Below, one piece after another: positions 999-32,394 of a stretch of DNA of 38,990 nt. Every line of letters begins with the position of its first letter. Positions within the stretch are counted from its first letter, which is position 1. This stretch comes from an uncultured Lachnospiraceae bacterium (GTDB lineage: Bacteria > Bacillota > Clostridia > Lachnospirales > Lachnospiraceae). A model generated the notes under the pieces. That model was not told the DNA's origin. It made no database searches and saw nothing but the letters and a program-made list of their open reading frames with translations. The stretch is taken from assembly GCA_902762955.1 (NCBI GenBank), contig CACWQH010000024.1:1-38990 (forward strand), given 5' to 3'. The position numbers and the translations under genes are program-made.

Positions 999-1292
999 GG
1001 CGGTCAGATGGTGGTATGGCTGTCTGATTTTCAAAAATCTAAATTAGTGCGAAGGTATATATAGGTCTTTAAATGGACCGTTTAAAAACGCGAGCACTTT
1101 AAGGTAATGAAAAAGGGAAGGTTGAACATTTGCATTTATGCAATAATGTTCAACCTTCCCTTTTGAATTAGCTTATTAGTACTCCTGCGTTTTTAACCGA
1201 GTGAGAACGTGTCCTTTAAAGACCTTATATATACCGTGCACTATCCAAGAACCTAACAAATTCAGACAGCAATACCTTTCCATCTGACCGCC
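999..1292 (-). repeat. Long palindromic repeat, copy 1 (inverted orientation, with a terminator-like apical hairpin)
   Basis: This fills most of the 432-bp gap between the NYN gene and prmA. Outer arms 999-1026 and about 1262-1292 pair (GGCGGTCAGATGG/CCATCTGACCGCC and CTGTCTGA/TCAGACAG), followed by a second stem around ggtatatata...tctttaaa (about 1045-1073 with 1214-1245). Read on the minus strand, the core contains CACGTTCTCACT, AAAACGCA and GTACTAA, which match CACGCTCTCGCT, AAACGCA and GTACTAA of the copies at 14660 and 17270. A 20-bp hairpin (1111-1130 with 1145-1164) forms the tip. Compared with the other copies, one core stem is changed on both sides (GGAC/GTCC instead of GCAGG/CCTGC), keeping pairing. 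It begins 12 bp after the prmA stop codon. Confidence 0.8.
1109..1164 (-). terminator. Rho-independent terminator of the hrcA-prmA operon
   Basis: A perfect 20-bp stem (1145-1164 with 1111-1130) with a 14-nt loop that can itself pair TGCAT/ATGCA. On the minus strand the stem ends in CCCTTTTTC, a short U tract. It is the apical hairpin of repeat copy 1 and lies about 140 bp after the prmA stop. Confidence 0.65.
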
Positions 1293-1304
1293 CCATACTC
1301 ACCA

Positions 1305-2276
1305 TTATTTAGCTATGATTGACACCCAGTCGTTCATATGCACGATATCAACTATTTCAAATCCATTTTCGATAAGCGCACTCTTAACCTGCTCTTCCTT
1401 CATATCAATGATTCCCGAAGTGATAAATAATCCACCTTCTTTAATAAGCGGTCTTACCACACCGGATAAAGGAATGATTACATCGGCTAAAATGTTGGCA
1501 ACCACGATATCATACTTATTGCCACCGTTAATCTCTATAGCCTTTTCGATAGCTTCACTACCTGTTGTGCTATCAAGCAGATTTCCACAGGTAAACTTAA
1601 GCTTATCCTCGCCTATTTTATTGACCTCTTGGTTTTCAATACTTGCCTTTACAGCAATCTCATCTATGTCCATGCCATGTACAAAGCCTGCACCAAGAAA
1701 TACACTTATTATGGATAAGATTCCGCTTCCCGAACCCACATCAAATACGGAATCACCGTACTTAAGATACTTTTTAAGCTGACCGATACATAACTTGGTT
1801 GTCTCATGTGATCCGGTACCAAAAGCTATGCCCGGATCGATTTCAACGACGATATCATCCTCATTTACGGCTTCAAGTTCCTCCCAGGTAGGCTTGATAA
1901 CTATATTGTCATAAATCCTAAACGGCTTAAAAAACTGCTTCCAGTTATTTATCCAATCCTTATCTTCGGTATTTGATAAAGTAATGTTCATGGTACCTAC
2001 AGGCATAAACGCACTAAGGCGGGTAAGTTCTGCAACTATATCCGCCTTTAATGTGTCGATATCAAAGCTTGTGTCGATAAAACACGAAACCTTTGCAGTT
2101 CCGTCATCCTCTCCCTCAACAAGAGGAATGTCAACAAACATAGCCTTTTTATCTTCTTCCGTAAGTGGAACATTATCTTCAATCATAATACCTTCAACGC
2201 CCTTTTCATCAAGAAAAACGCTTAAGATATCAACTGCATCAACAGTTGTTTCGATTGTTAATTTTGTCCACATCAT
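1305..2276 (-). CDS. prmA: Ribosomal protein L11 methyltransferase
   Basis: PrmA transfers methyl groups from S-adenosylmethionine to ribosomal protein L11 in the cytosol. The 323-aa protein has the family layout: an N-terminal L11-recognition domain (about 1-100), the linker motif DPGIAFGTGSHETT (147-160), then a Rossmann methyltransferase domain with DVGSGSG (179-185) as SAM loop and VVANILADVI near 257. The length is usual for clostridial PrmA. The gene is the last of the heat-shock operon, 6 bp after dnaJ, as in many Firmicutes. AAGGA in the end of dnaJ is a likely ribosome binding site; two adjacent ATG codons leave the exact first residue open. Copy 1 of the palindromic repeat, carrying the terminator, follows directly. 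Confidence 0.95.
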   Translation of the reverse strand: MMWTKLTIETTVDAVDILSVFLDEKGVEGIMIEDNVPLTEEDKKAMFVDIPLVEGEDDGTAKVSCFIDTSFDIDTLKADIVAELTRLSAFMPVGTMNITLSNTEDKDWINNWKQFFKPFRIYDNIVIKPTWEELEAVNEDDIVVEIDPGIAFGTGSHETTKLCIGQLKKYLKYGDSVFDVGSGSGILSIISVFLGAGFVHGMDIDEIAVKASIENQEVNKIGEDKLKFTCGNLLDSTTGSEAIEKAIEINGGNKYDIVVANILADVIIPLSGVVRPLIKEGGLFITSGIIDMKEEQVKSALIENGFEIVDIVHMNDWVSIIAK

Positions 2277-12818: not shown

Positions 12819-14633
12819 CTACTCCTCATCTAATTTAAGTACACTCATAAACGCCTTCTGCGGAATCTCTACATTTCCAATCTGGCGCATTCTCTTTTTT
12901 CCTTCCTTCTGCTTTTCAAGAAGCTTACGCTTACGGGTTATATCACCGCCGTAACACTTCGCAAGCACGTCCTTACGAACTGCCTTAACGGTCTCTCTGG
13001 CGATAACCTTACTTCCGATTGCAGCCTGAATAGGAATTTCAAACAAATGTCTCGGTATCTCTTCCTTGAGCTTTTCACACATCTTTCTGCCTCTTTCATA
13101 AGCAGTATCCTTATGAAGGATAAAGGAAAGTGCGTCAACCTCCTCCTTGTTAATAAGCATATCCAGCTTAACAAGATCCGAACGCTCATAGCCCTTGAAC
13201 TCATAATCAAGGGAAGCATAACCTCTTGAACGGGATTTTAAAGCATCAAAGAAATCATATATTATCTCATTTAACGGTAAATCATACTTGAGTAAGGCAC
13301 GAGTGGTTTCCATGTATTCCATGCTCTTATAGATGCCTCGTCTTTCCTGACAAAGCTGCATTATCGCGCCCACATAATCTGTAGTAACCATTATTTCAGT
13401 CGAAACAAACGGTTCCTCCATATAATCTATAACCGAAGGATCCGGTAGATTGGACGGATTGGTAAGCTCGATAACCTCACCGTCGGTTTTATGTACCTTA
13501 TATACAACACCCGGAGCTGTCGTTACTAGGTCAAGGTTGTATTCTCTTTCAAGTCTTTCCTGTATTATCTCAAGATGTAAAAGGCCCAAAAATCCACATC
13601 TGAATCCAAAGCCGAGTGCAATTGAGGTTTCAGGCTCAAAGCTAAGTGATGCATCATTTAACTGCAGCTTTTCAAGTGCATCTCTTAAATCCGGATACTT
13701 TGCTCCGTCTGCAGGATAAAGACCGCAGTAAACCATAGGATTAACCTTCTTATATCCGGGAAGTGCCTCGGCACAAGGGTTGTCCGCATCCGTTACGGTA
13801 TCACCTACTGTTGTATCCTTAACATTTTTAAGACTTGCGGTTATATATCCGACCATACCTGCACTAAGCTCATCACAAGGTATGAACTGCCCTGCTCCAA
13901 ATATTCCGACTTGAACAACTTCAGCCTCTGCACCGGTTGCCATCATTTTTATCTTTGTACCCTTGGTGCAAACACCGTCAAATACACGGCAAAATATTAT
14001 TACACCCTTATAGGAATCATAGAGACTATCAAATATAAGCGCCTTAAACGGTGCGTCCACATCCCCCGTCGGTGCAGGAATTTTTTCAACTATCTGCTCC
14101 AGAACCTGCTCTATATTTATTCCGTTTTTAGCAGAGATAAGAGGTGCCTCACTTGCTTCGATTCCGATTACATCCTCTATCTCATTTATAACCCTTTCAG
14201 GGTCTGCCGATGGTAAATCAATCTTATTTATAACCGGCATAATATCAAGGTTATGATCTACAGCCAAGTAGACATTGGCAAGAGTCTGAGCCTCGATACC
14301 CTGAGCCGCATCCACAACAAGAACGGCACCCTCACAGGCTGCCAGGCTTCTTGAAACCTCATAGTTAAAATCCACATGTCCCGGAGTGTCTATAAGGTTA
14401 AATATATATTCGTGACCATCATTTGCCTTATATATTATACGCACCGACTGCGCCTTAATCGTTATACCTCTCTCTCGCTCAAGATCCATGTTGTCGAGCA
14501 CCTGCTCCTGCATCTCACGACTGGTTAAGGTTCCGGTCTTTTCGATGATACGGTCCGCAAGTGTTGATTTACCATGATCTATATGCGCGATTATGCAAAA
14601 ATTTCTTATATATTTTTGATCAAGATGTGCCAT
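12819..14633 (-). CDS. lepA: Elongation factor 4 (LepA), translational GTPase
   Basis: LepA/EF4 is a ribosome-associated GTPase implicated in translation initiation, back-translocation or ribosome assembly. The 604-aa protein is full length. G1 AHIDHGKST (16-24), the switch region [13 protein letters not shown]3 DTPGHVDF and G4 NKIDLP are intact, followed by domains II and III and the LepA-specific C-terminal domain ([20 protein letters not shown]). GAGGAAAG precedes ATG at 14633. Palindromic repeat copy 2 ends 27 bp upstream of the start codon, inside the predicted leader of the transcript. hemW follows. Confidence 0.97.
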
Positions 14634-14659: not shown

Positions 14660-14848
14660 GGACTGTGTATAACAGATTATATCCATCGCAGGCACGCTCT
14701 CGCTACTCTCAAACGCAACGGTACTAAGTTCCTTTTCGGTAAGTCTTAATTATTATTACTTCGTAAATAATTAAGACTTACCAAAAACTCACTAAGTACC
14801 GGCGTTTTCAAAGTACCTGCTTATGGATATATCTGTTATACACAGTCC
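14660..14848 (+). repeat. Palindromic repeat, copy 2 (in the lepA leader)
   Basis: Outer arms 14660-14686 and 14823-14848 form a 26-bp stem with one bulged T. The core left strand (14687-14728) contains GCACGCTCTCGCTACTCTCA, AAACGCAACGG and GTACTAAG; the right strand (14788-14822) contains CTAAGTACCGGCGTTTTC and AAAGTACCTGC. Core parts pair (GCAGG/CCTGC, AAACGC/GCGTTT, CGGTACT/AGTACCG) around a conserved asymmetric internal loop. A perfect 17-bp apical hairpin (14738-14754 with 14766-14782) forms the tip. The core is nearly identical to that at 17270-17407, while outer stem and tip differ. Confidence 0.85.
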
Positions 14849-14971: not shown

Positions 14972-16204
14972 TTATTCTTTACGCAGTACACTGTTTATAA
15001 TTGCCGCAAGAGGAATCATTGCATTTTTTGCTTCTTCAACCGTATTGGTCTGGGCTCCAACCTCCACAAGTGAGGCTCTCGGCAGCTTTTCAAGGTTAAA
15101 GCTGTAACCCCTTATGTATATTCTTCGAAGCAAATCTCCGTACATCGCTTTACCGGCGAGATGCATCTGTAGACTGAAGGCAAGATTTTCTACCTTATGT
15201 GGATTGTACAGATAGTCGATATCACCGTTTAGATTAAGCCTGCTCACACCATTTAAAAACATTATCTGAGCTGTCGGTCTTCCGTCTATAACTCTCATAA
15301 GCTTTAAATCCTCTCTTACTCCATCTCTGTGAAGGTCTATGATTACCTCTATAGATGGATTTTCAGCAAGGATTCTGTCAACTGCCGCACCTGATAAGGT
15401 ATATGCATAGCTCCTGTCAAGAACTCCGTTTACCACATCGTAAACATTTCTGTCATGATAGGTTTTTATACCGTATTCTTCTTCAAGTATGCGTGTAAGC
15501 TCATCTCCGACACCTATTACGGTATCTTCGGTCACTCCCTCCCGACTGTCTGCAAATGCCTCGCTTCCGTGGGTATGATATATAAGTACCTTATATCCGT
15601 CACCGGAAAGATCAATACTCATATCCATACCAAGCAAAGTATCAGCATCAATCTCCTCCGGCAAAACACTGGTTGAGCTGTCAACCGCATAGCAGTTTTT
15701 AAGCATAAATTCATAATCATTTAACTGTTCCATCGAGTAATATATACCATTTGGATTCATACCGGCCGATGCCATAACGTAAAGATTATCCTGTGGCTCC
15801 TCCGTACTTTCATCGGGAATAGCCTCTGTTGGCTGCTCTTCAGATGAAGAATCAGTACTTGCATCTTCAGTTTCACCTGATGAAACAACCTCTTTGTTAT
15901 CCGGTGAAAATGCTCCATCCACGCCAAAAGACGAAATAGCCGAATAATCATAATCCGAAAAATCATCGTAGGATAAATCAGGTTCATCCGAATATTCTTC
16001 ATTTCCAATCGCCAGCATGGGGATAAGCTCATACAATAGATCATTTCCCTTAGATTTATCCATACTGATAGCTGGAATAAGCTCATCCCTGATTCCTTTT
16101 AAAATATACCTCGATAAGAATTCAGTCCGGACCATGATAAAGATGCTTATTATAATTACTATTAAACAATAAATATATCCTATAAAGCCTTTTATTTTTT
16201 CCAT
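14972..16204 (-). CDS. spoIIP: Stage II sporulation protein P
   Basis: SpoIIP is a membrane-anchored amidase/endopeptidase that, with SpoIID and SpoIIM, degrades septal peptidoglycan during engulfment. The 410-aa protein has a single N-terminal transmembrane anchor (about 8-26), a long acidic Ser/Glu-rich spacer (about 70-140) and the catalytic domain from about 195, with YHTHGSEAF, the later LHRDG and the closing RASLVEVGAQTNT motif that carry the zinc-binding and catalytic residues of the family. It lies 15 bp after gpr, the usual order in Clostridia and Bacilli, so the pair is one sporulation operon. Its presence indicates an endospore-forming lineage. Confidence 0.94.
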   Translation of the reverse strand: MEKIKGFIGYIYCLIVIIISIFIMVRTEFLSRYILKGIRDELIPAISMDKSKGNDLLYELIPMLAIGNEEYSDEPDLSYDDFSDYDYSAISSFGVDGAFSPDNKEVVSSGETEDASTDSSSEEQPTEAIPDESTEEPQDNLYVMASAGMNPNGIYYSMEQLNDYEFMLKNCYAVDSSTSVLPEEIDADTLLGMDMSIDLSGDGYKVLIYHTHGSEAFADSREGVTEDTVIGVGDELTRILEEEYGIKTYHDRNVYDVVNGVLDRSYAYTLSGAAVDRILAENPSIEVIIDLHRDGVREDLKLMRVIDGRPTAQIMFLNGVSRLNLNGDIDYLYNPHKVENLAFSLQMHLAGKAMYGDLLRRIYIRGYSFNLEKLPRASLVEVGAQTNTVEEAKNAMIPLAAIINSVLRKE

Positions 16205-16219
16205 AGTAAAATATATGCT

Positions 16220-17245
16220 TTAATTTCTCTTATAATTCAAAAAACCGTTAATTGCCTCGGAGATTGTATAAGATACCTTTTTAACCGCTTCGTCTATATT
16301 TTTAGGTGTAACAAACATGGCTGCAAGATCGGGTTCAAGCAGATTACAGGCTATTTCATATTTTTCTGCATCAGTAAAACGGTCCAGTCTCTCGGAGTAT
16401 TCATCAGCTTCTTCATATCCGGTTTCACGGCTTTCATCTGCGCCATGTTTTAATCCACTCATTTTGCCTTTACTATTCTTTTCTCTGCTGTTCTCATTTT
16501 TATTTTTTCCGTCCTTCAAGACATCGATCATACCCTCGACTGACTGGTAGACGATAGCCGGAACAGATATTACGGTCGGAACACCGATAGCTATAACCTT
16601 TACACCAAGTGTTTTCTTATCAAGTCTTGCTCTGTTATTGCCAACTCCTGCACCGGGATTGATACCCGTGTCGCATATCTGTATAGTGGAATTAAGCCTC
16701 TCCGGTTCTCTTGCGGCAAGTGCATCTATGGCAATCACCACATCCGGTTTAACCTTATCACATACCGACTTAATAATTACGCTTGTCTCAATACCCGTCT
16801 GTGCCATAACTCCGGGGATAAGCGCCGAAAGCTCCTTATCCTCCTTTACAAGACCCTCGTTTATAAGGTGCCTTGTTATATAGAGATTATCAATCACAAG
16901 CGGTCCCAATGAATCCGGTGTAATCGCTCTGTTTCCAAGTCCTATAACCATTATCTTGTCTGCCTTACCTATCAACTTGGCAAGATTTTGATGGAGAATC
17001 TTCATAAAGGATTTATTGATACTGTCATCACCCTCACGCAAGCTCTTACTCTCAATTGTGACATAGGTTCCGACAGGCTTTCCAAGCAGCATCTCTCCGT
17101 TTTTATTTACAACCTCTATAATGGTTTCCTTTATATCCTCATCCTTATAATTCTTGGTAAATATCTTCACACCGTCTATAAGTCCCTGCTCGGGCAGGTC
17201 TTCCTTTAATTCAAGTGCCAAATCCGTACGTATATATCTTTTCAT
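16220..17245 (-). CDS. gpr: Germination protease GPR
   Basis: GPR is an aspartic-type endopeptidase made as a zymogen in the forespore that degrades small acid-soluble spore proteins at germination. The 341-aa protein begins with the family propeptide signature RTDLALE (6-12) and contains GLGNRAITPDSLGP, the LIPGVMAQTGIET segment and DALAAREPERL followed by TGINPGAGVGNNR, all typical. An insertion of about 45 charged residues (about 248-292) lengthens the C-terminal half. AAAGGAG is the ribosome binding site. Palindromic repeat copy 3 ends 25 bp upstream of ATG. No convincing sigma-F/sigma-G promoter could be picked out by eye in the gap. Confidence 0.95.
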   Translation of the reverse strand: MKRYIRTDLALELKEDLPEQGLIDGVKIFTKNYKDEDIKETIIEVVNKNGEMLLGKPVGTYVTIESKSLREGDDSINKSFMKILHQNLAKLIGKADKIMVIGLGNRAITPDSLGPLVIDNLYITRHLINEGLVKEDKELSALIPGVMAQTGIETSVIIKSVCDKVKPDVVIAIDALAAREPERLNSTIQICDTGINPGAGVGNNRARLDKKTLGVKVIAIGVPTVISVPAIVYQSVEGMIDVLKDGKNKNENSREKNSKGKMSGLKHGADESRETGYEEADEYSERLDRFTDAEKYEIACNLLEPDLAAMFVTPKNIDEAVKKVSYTISEAINGFLNYKRN

Positions 17246-17269: not shown

Positions 17270-17407
17270 GGTTGGATATGTTTTATATATCTATCGCAGG
17301 CACGCTCTCGCTACTCTCACACGCAACGGTACTAAGCTCGAAAAAACCTCGCTAAGTACCGGCGTGTTCAAAGTACCTGCTTATAGATATATAAAACACA
17401 TCCAACC
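17270..17407 (+). repeat. Palindromic repeat, copy 3 (directly upstream of gpr)
   Basis: Outer arms 17270-17294 and 17383-17407 pair over 25 bp with one mismatch; their sequence is unrelated to the arms of copy 2 beyond the innermost bases. The core (17295-17336 and 17348-17382) is almost identical to copy 2. One difference is a matched double change: left A to C and right T to G (CACACGC with GCGTGTT instead of CAAACGC with GCGTTTT), which keeps pairing. The innermost outer-stem bases also covary (CTAT/ATAG versus CCAT/ATGG). The tip is only an A-rich loop with no hairpin. Confidence 0.85.
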
Positions 17408-31941: not shown

Positions 31942-31970
31942 ATAATAACATATAAAAAAATAAAATGCAA
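31942..31970 (-). promoter_or_regulatory. Promoter of hipBA
   Basis: TTGCAT (31970-31965) and TATTAT (31947-31942) are 17 bp apart on the minus strand. The -35 box overlaps the proximal palindrome, so a bound repressor would block RNA polymerase. Confidence 0.6.
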
Positions 31971-32019
31971 TATATTGCGTTTTAACTCTGATTTTAAACA
32001 CTAATAAGCAATATATTGC
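31967..32019. promoter_or_regulatory. Pair of identical palindromic operators (GCAATATATTGC), likely HipB sites
   Basis: GCAATATATTGC occurs at 31967-31978 and 32008-32019, each followed by gtttta. Centres are 41 bp apart, close to four helical turns, which would place two dimers on the same DNA face. Identity extends over about 18 bp. HipB of other bacteria uses paired palindromes. Confidence 0.65.
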
Positions 32020-32022
32020 GTT

Positions 32023-32394
32023 TTATTTATTATAATTTTTTTCTAATAATTCCTTTAACTCCTCCAGCCCTATACCGGAAAGCTTCGCCTTATCCACTGC
32101 TTTCGACAGCAGTTCTTCCGTCTGGCGCAAGGTTTCCTCCCGAAGCAGCTTAGCATTTTGTGCCTTGACGAAGCATCCTCGTCCGGTGTAGGACTCTATG
32201 AAGCCGTCCCGCTCAAGCTCCTCGTAGGCGCGCTTGGTAGTGATAACGCTTATCCGAAGCTGCATTGCGAGATTACGCATCGACGGGAGAGCCTCGCCTA
32301 CGGCAAGCTCCCCACTCATTATCTTTGCCTTTATCTGATTTTCAATCTGCAGGTAGATAGGTTCATCCACCATATTTGAAATAATTATATCCAA
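32023..32394 (-). CDS. GntR-family regulator, YtrA subfamily
   Basis: The 123-aa protein has the GntR winged helix (about 10-75, PIYLQIENQIKAKIMSGELAVGEALPSMR then TTKRAYEELERDGFIESYTGRGCFV) and only a short C-terminal helical dimerisation tail, which is the YtrA subfamily. Such small regulators control ABC transporter operons in Firmicutes, often repressing their own. It is the last gene of the ABC operon, 2 bp after the CPBP gene. The palindrome at 35781-35797 near the operon promoter is the natural candidate target. Confidence 0.93.
   Translation of the reverse strand: MDIIISNMVDEPIYLQIENQIKAKIMSGELAVGEALPSMRNLAMQLRISVITTKRAYEELERDGFIESYTGRGCFVKAQNAKLLREETLRQTEELLSKAVDKAKLSGIGLEELKELLEKNYNK

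Follow-up and report, generated by a model that had tools for sequence, protein, structure and literature searches.

A family of dispersed palindromic repeats in Lachnospiraceae with a conserved asymmetric core and arms of nearly free sequence

In enterobacteria, ERIC (RU-1) and YPAL (RU-2) are intergenic palindromic repeats of 127 and 168 bp, respectively, present in many copies. ERIC sequences may be co-transcribed and may affect mRNA stability, while recent mobility of YPAL has been predicted from empty and filled sites. The Correia or NEMIS repeats of Neisseria are small and MITE-like, with 24-bp terminal inverted repeats, a terminal TA and target duplications, and their RNA hairpins have been proposed as RNase III substrates (for these three families, the available extracts of PMC2229807). 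REPs are shorter (20-40 bp) and carry a GTAG or CGTC tag; they form palindromic families with alternative complementary residues in their stems, G-T pairing is often observed in the stems of GTAG REPs, and a RAYT can recognize the latter as single-stranded DNA (available extracts of PMC3733652).

The repeats described here were encountered in a window of 38,990 nucleotides, the whole stretch of DNA analyzed, from an uncultured Lachnospiraceae bacterium whose genome (G000) has a completeness of 89%. Among LepA matches that carry a record name, the best comes from the rumen MAG RUG13380 (uncultured Lachnospiraceae bacterium), whose DNA is 92% identical over 7.8 kb. Three sites in the window, reported by a first-pass annotation to share a core, are all present with that core as described (Table 1). 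As single-stranded DNA they fold with z-scores of -16.0 (element 1, minus strand), -17.3 (element 2) and -12.1 (element 3), and in each case none of 200 dinucleotide shuffles folds as well. They are true copies of one family, and no fourth copy is reported in the window by the covariance model R1 (see below) at E<=0.01.

Each copy is organized around a near-invariant core, in which the 12-nt asymmetric loop CACGCTCTCGCT is followed by GTACTAA / TAAGTAC. The outer stem, of ~26 bp, is nearly free in sequence and self-complementary, and the inner helix, of ~13 bp, contains a 2-nt bulge and a conserved A-A mismatch inside GTACTAA/TAAGTAC. Caps are of several kinds, and sister genomes can differ in cap at one site. 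Elements measure roughly 120-350 bp, most model matches spanning 110-185 nt. The 12-mer CACGYTCTCRCT occurs 28 times in G000, compared with once for its reversed control. In an alignment of 116 distinct copies fitted to the model (A2), information content reaches 1.6 bits per column in the 12-nt loop, a value somewhat inflated because all 18 model seeds were picked by the exact 12-mer, as against 0.5 in the outer helix; the GTACTAA / TAAGTAC columns hold ~1.5-1.6 bits. The core had been characterized as partly unpaired, which needs correcting for the 12-mer, as this carries a 2-bp mini-hairpin, GC-TCTC-GC. In 5 of 115 copies the latter is changed to GT-TCTC-AC, and because this change is compensated the core resembles a junction.

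Two classes of arms can be distinguished. In class A they are complementary and not shared between copies, with a weak end motif at the 5′ side (TTAC|GG), while class B, a longer sub-family, has long terminal repeats, TAAATTCCGGTTTGTCGG, common to its copies. The outer stems had been considered unrelated between sites yet self-complementary. Self-complementarity is confirmed; as to unrelatedness, elements 2 and 3 differ in the outer part and have the inner ~8 nt in common (by eye), and element 1 aligns with class B, in which a large part of the outer stem is common to the copies, although that of element 1 itself has diverged. Outer stems are most often 26-29 nt long (44 of the 105 copies that lack class B motifs). 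Among 70 copies, the arms of 29 show no mismatch other than at one constant loop position, while the remaining 41 show one or more. As arm sequence is free, a conserved reading frame in the elements is unlikely. Some loci form giant hairpins, with at least two cores in opposite orientation per rod (L290-L293, L036, L046, L054).

Table 1. Positions of the three elements, their parts and the adjacent genes in the window
Feature	Position	Strand	Context and evidence
Element 1, class B-like	999..1292	-	directly 3′ of prmA stop codon, sense; R1 match 1055-1234, E 7.4e-15
Element 1, 12-nt loop, variant CACGTTCTCACT, compensated mini-hairpin	1200..1211	-	12-mer search; alignment
prmA, ends just before element 1	1305..2276	-	Pfam PrmA
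lepA, gene downstream of element 2	12819..14633	-	Pfam LepA_C
Element 2, class A, long cap	14660..14848	+	upstream of lepA, antisense; R1 match 14670-14838, E 1.4e-25; ssDNA fold
Element 2, outer stem, 5′ arm	14660..14686	+	18-bp perfect inverted repeat; fold
Element 2, conserved 12-nt loop CACGCTCTCGCT	14693..14704	+	12-mer search; loop conservation
Element 2, outer stem, 3′ arm	14823..14848	+	inverted repeat; fold
spoIIP, gene upstream of element 2	14972..16204	-	Pfam SpoIIP
gpr (germination protease), gene downstream of element 3	16220..17245	-	Pfam Peptidase_A25
Element 3, class A, short cap	17270..17407	+	upstream of gpr, antisense; R1 match 17278-17398, E 9.5e-35; ssDNA fold
Element 3, outer stem, 5′ arm	17270..17294	+	25-nt arm, 96% complementary
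Element 3, conserved 12-nt loop	17301..17312	+	12-mer search
Element 3, outer stem, 3′ arm	17383..17407	+	inverted repeat

Three other features of the window can be mentioned. Element 1 has as its neighbor a coding sequence for a PIN7-domain protein (235-873), AT-rich inverted repeats without a covariance-model match lie at 31944-32042, and a promoter-like sequence, TTGCCA-17-TATACT, precedes the lepA copy (14916-14888, minus strand; by eye).

The distribution of the family was established with R1, built from 18 short-cap copies aligned with MAFFT, all chosen by the exact 12-mer (A1), for which RNAalifold gives a structure of 31 pairs, 20 of them with double changes. At E<=0.001, matches occur in all 37 sampled genomes of the window's genus, with 1-58 per genome and at least 805 in total (lower bounds, scoring having been capped at 96 candidates per genome), so that the repeat is short, dispersed and multi-copy in the manner of MITEs. 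Further copies in related genomes, which the first-pass annotation had proposed to seek in this way, are thus counted in hundreds. Across the order, with filters stricter than in the genus search, 14 of 196 genomes are matched, all from the window's family and representing seven genera including its own; among the itemized genomes of that family, 14 of 22 have a match and eight do not (162 unmatched genomes of the sample are counted without being itemized), while in this sample no genome of another family of the order has one. No match was found in viral contigs with one exact cap pattern as query, nor in plasmids and phages with element 3. The window has no Rfam 15 match at gathering score. 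When the E-value is relaxed, the elements at L001-L003 retrieve no models other than those of miRNAs and snoRNAs, none of which reaches gathering score, and membership of an Rfam family was rejected. With no description in the literature as far as searched, the family looks unnamed, as had been supposed. Another genus of the family (G185, G169) has small paired hairpins made of the cap motif ACTAAGCTCG..CCTCGCTAAGT (L276-L280); at four of these loci a T-box leader adjoins them, two at gathering score, the only such Rfam matches near these hairpins, and two just below.

Genomic context was read in G000, G019 and G024 from longest-ORF gene calls, a few contexts being set by reading overlapping frames. 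From 101 matches listed, 93 were analyzed and 91 have a locus; the eight left out include both matches of a palindrome on G000:C34 and some class B copies. Sixteen loci carry the class B cap motif and, of the other 75, 66 entered a hand-typed orientation table, nine being set aside as class B-like or ambiguous (two ambiguous ones lie between convergent genes). Nearly all copies in the contexts read are intergenic. Counting orthologs of different species separately, 59 of the 66 hand-classified class A copies lie in co-directional gaps (42 antisense, 17 sense), six in divergent gaps and one in a convergent gap (3 of 70 if four ambiguous copies are added). The end of an antisense copy typically lies 20-45 nt away from a start codon, the distances in the window being 26 nt for lepA and 24 nt for gpr. 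Of the 16 class B copies, 14 stand in sense orientation behind a stop codon; in five copies the TAA that opens the element is itself the stop codon, and the preceding genes are unrelated to each other, judging from their C-terminal sequences (both by eye). A promoter carried by the element at a constant spacing from the arm was considered and dropped, as inspection by eye yielded no clear positional motif.

Because of this placement in leaders and intercistronic gaps, the main rival to a mobile DNA element is a cis-acting RNA, possible though rather unlikely, in which a hairpin in the leader, the intercistronic gap or the 3′ end would be cut by an RNase III-like activity or bound, setting mRNA stability or translation, with pairing selected in RNA. 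The strong covariation agrees with it. In A2, 95.4% of the cells are paired, 739 cells are changed on both sides, double changes affect 29 of the 31 pairs, and the covariation score is 0.553, compared with 0.166 after shuffling (none of 500 shuffles reaches the observed value) and no more than 0.121 with slid partners. This alignment leans towards the structure because it was fitted to the model; A1, aligned without structure, gives 0.443 against 0.166, and both structures derive from the sequences scored. The covariation test that had been suggested, run here against shuffled and slid controls, thus gives a large excess.

The wobble pairs tell another story for the RNA rival. Among 3,549 cells there are 48 G-T and 42 A-C mismatches, so that neither strand is favored overall, and two kinds of mismatch that are about equally rare do not match the abundance of G-U that a helix maintained as RNA should show. 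In the outer helix (helix 1) A-C exceeds G-T by 23 to 4, which would be G-U on the other strand and would suit an RNA, but inner helices 4 and 5 show the opposite (41 G-T, 13 A-C); since the helices contradict each other, assignment of a functional strand from wobble asymmetry was rejected. When copies are split by the orientation of the left gene, the bias does not flip as a constraint on mRNA would predict (3 G-T and 6 A-C in sense copies, 3 and 16 in antisense copies, all small numbers). Two tRNAs taken for comparison (4 G-T and no A-C in 49 pairs) form too small a set to be used. Moreover, the same core is found in both gene orientations, so that a transcript would contain the loop CACGCTCTCGCT in some cases and its complement in others.

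The family is a dispersed repeat with turnover of sites between species, an aspect missed by the first-pass annotation. When orthologous sites are paired through flanking DNA (blastn of flanks), 17 of 30 G000 elements have a partner on both flanks in G019, 4 in G024 and 6 in G004. Of the 36 G004 elements taken into the comparison (from 47 matches), 14 have their site in common with at least one of G000, G019 and G024, as does none of seven elements from the more distant G026. Some copies persist intact, those of G000:C9 and G019:C14 being identical over 240 nt, and others are rewritten in place. At three orthologous sites whole stems differ between 700-nt flanks that are 86-97% identical, and the stem upstream of lepA in G000 and G019 has little in common with that of G004, each being self-complementary. 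In 20-bp outer-stem windows of 24 ortholog pairs (some sharing a member), 320 positions are the same, 59 changed on both arms and still paired, 44 changed on one arm, and 6 changed on both and unpaired.

Such rewriting is what a mostly mutational origin would produce, quasi-palindromes being perfected by template switching so that covariation needs little selection. Homogenization of inverted-repeat arms by this route is known (PMC8604942 and PMC7202029, in the extracts available) and very probably occurs in the family: G000:C34:24498-24579 is a near-perfect palindrome running through the core, for which the best explanation is that one arm was copied onto its partner. As the complete account it is nonetheless improbable, since template switching would erase the asymmetric loop, which is kept at the contrast in information content given above, and would leave the narrow range of stem lengths and the family-wide spread unexplained. 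With template switching very probable at that locus, part of the covariation may be mutational, and covariation is not readable as pure selection. The idea of a structure under selection is thus upheld as regards strong covariation and qualified by this homogenization and by the scarcity of wobble; taken as a whole, the earlier reading is partly supported.

A fixed, non-moving chromosomal binding site for nucleoid, partition or repair functions would fit the presence in every sampled genome of the genus and the intergenic location, but is very improbable given a copy number of 1-58, incomplete site sharing among close species and nested copies.

The reading to which we give an even chance is that the sites are copies of non-autonomous, MITE-like fold-back mobile repeats recognized by their structure. 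Mobility is suggested by dispersal, site turnover, both orientations, nesting and apparently empty sites, and recognition by shape by a loop asymmetry and a stem length that are conserved although the arms are free in sequence. Three sites read by eye are filled in one genome and short and armless in a relative (G024:C85:32346 compared with G019; G019:C34:2203 with G000 and G024; G019:C21:33453 with G024); across these comparisons, with flanks ~86-94% identical and blurred breakpoints, no clear target-site duplication is seen. Complete deletion of an element can leave an empty site as well, and remnants indicate that loss is common, which weakens the argument. In the counterpart of element 1 after prmA (by eye), G022 has an intact copy with another cap, G019 and G013 have a central deletion between the self-palindromic repeats TTTAAA and TATATA, G004 and G024 are further reduced, and no counterpart is seen in six more distant relatives (L254-L259). 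One-armed sites also exist. That of G024:C38 hinted that the outer stem is an inverted duplication of the target, a proposal weakened by clean empty sites without an arm and by a second one-armed remnant, in G024 at the site of G019:C21:31103, which keeps the element-specific bases ...TTCATCGCA.

The mobile reading is further weakened in that no transposase was identified, no target-site duplication resolved and no viral, plasmid or phage match found with the queries used, and by the preference for co-directional gaps, which may stem from a role in the transcript. The Y1 (IS200-like) transposase PF01797 is present in 8 of the 37 genomes of the genus and was not found in G000, G019, G024 or G013, several of which are incomplete; as most element-rich genomes are without it, mobilization by a RAYT or IS200 is unsupported.

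Several loci display additional features. Downstream of the decayed element 1 in some relatives, strong promoter-like sequences and an opposite short hydrophobic frame were noticed by eye (L249, L250, L252, L253), an arrangement that resembles a type I toxin-antitoxin locus. Class B elements in G000:C74, C19, C60 and C48 (L030, L194, L193, L197) and in G019:C36 and C25 (L226, L247) are followed by arrays of ~70-bp imperfect palindromes, e.g. GGTAACAAAA..TTTTGTTACC; after some arrays comes an inverted second core element or a terminal repeat, making a composite fold-back element (by eye). The terminal repeat of the composite element occurs 35 times in G000 with at most three mismatches (reversed control, 1), often near contig ends. 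In G000:C38 (L191), a GGTAACAAAT..TTTTTGTTACC repeat array stands where G019 carries the core element G019:C21:32178. At G024:C1 the element is bounded on either side by the end of a gene, the two genes being convergent (by eye); the left one has a different follower in G023 and G013, which suggests recombination between copies.

In this reading each copy is an imperfect palindrome whose fold, in DNA (hairpin or cruciform) as well as in RNA, comprises the ~26-bp outer stem, the asymmetric junction, the ~13-bp inner helix and an exchangeable cap. We infer transposition by a putative trans-acting enzyme that would recognize the junction and measure the stem, and because such an enzyme would read junction and stem length, arm sequence would be free as long as it stays paired. 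Hairpin-templated copying during replication may help to rewrite both arms together, and some copies in mRNA leaders may have been co-opted in mRNA processing or stability. A bolder formulation, which we regard as doubtful, is that the identity of the element is coded in its shape: on folded DNA the enzyme would read a small junction and a paired arm of fixed length, arms without conserved sequence would be rewritten as a unit by hairpin-templated copying, and cores could be stacked and caps exchanged between copies. Every copy would then soon look unrelated to its siblings.

Similarity-based repeat finders would see only the core of such a family. Should shape be both copied and recognized, the family would offer a natural system for structure-guided DNA mobility and for coordinated rewriting of palindrome arms, and it may influence a large number of housekeeping transcripts in bacteria of the rumen and gut. 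A warning also follows: compensatory covariation can arise from correction of DNA palindromes and is alone no proof of a functional RNA.

Comparison with the described systems, within the extracts of the sources cited above, reveals both likenesses and differences. The family resembles REPs in being palindromic with alternative complementary residues in its stems. Unlike REPs, the Lachnospiraceae elements reach ~120-350 bp, have rare G-T pairs and occur in a genome, G000, without a detected Y1 transposase; the consensus and stem ends contain no GTAG tag, so that neither size nor tag is that of a REP. It is a small, MITE-like repeat, as is NEMIS; unlike NEMIS, class A arms have no conserved sequence, and no target duplication was found. 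The family is like ERIC and YPAL in consisting of intergenic palindromic repeats in many copies, and differs from them in belonging to another phylum and in combining near-free arms around a conserved junction with exchangeable caps and double-core rods.
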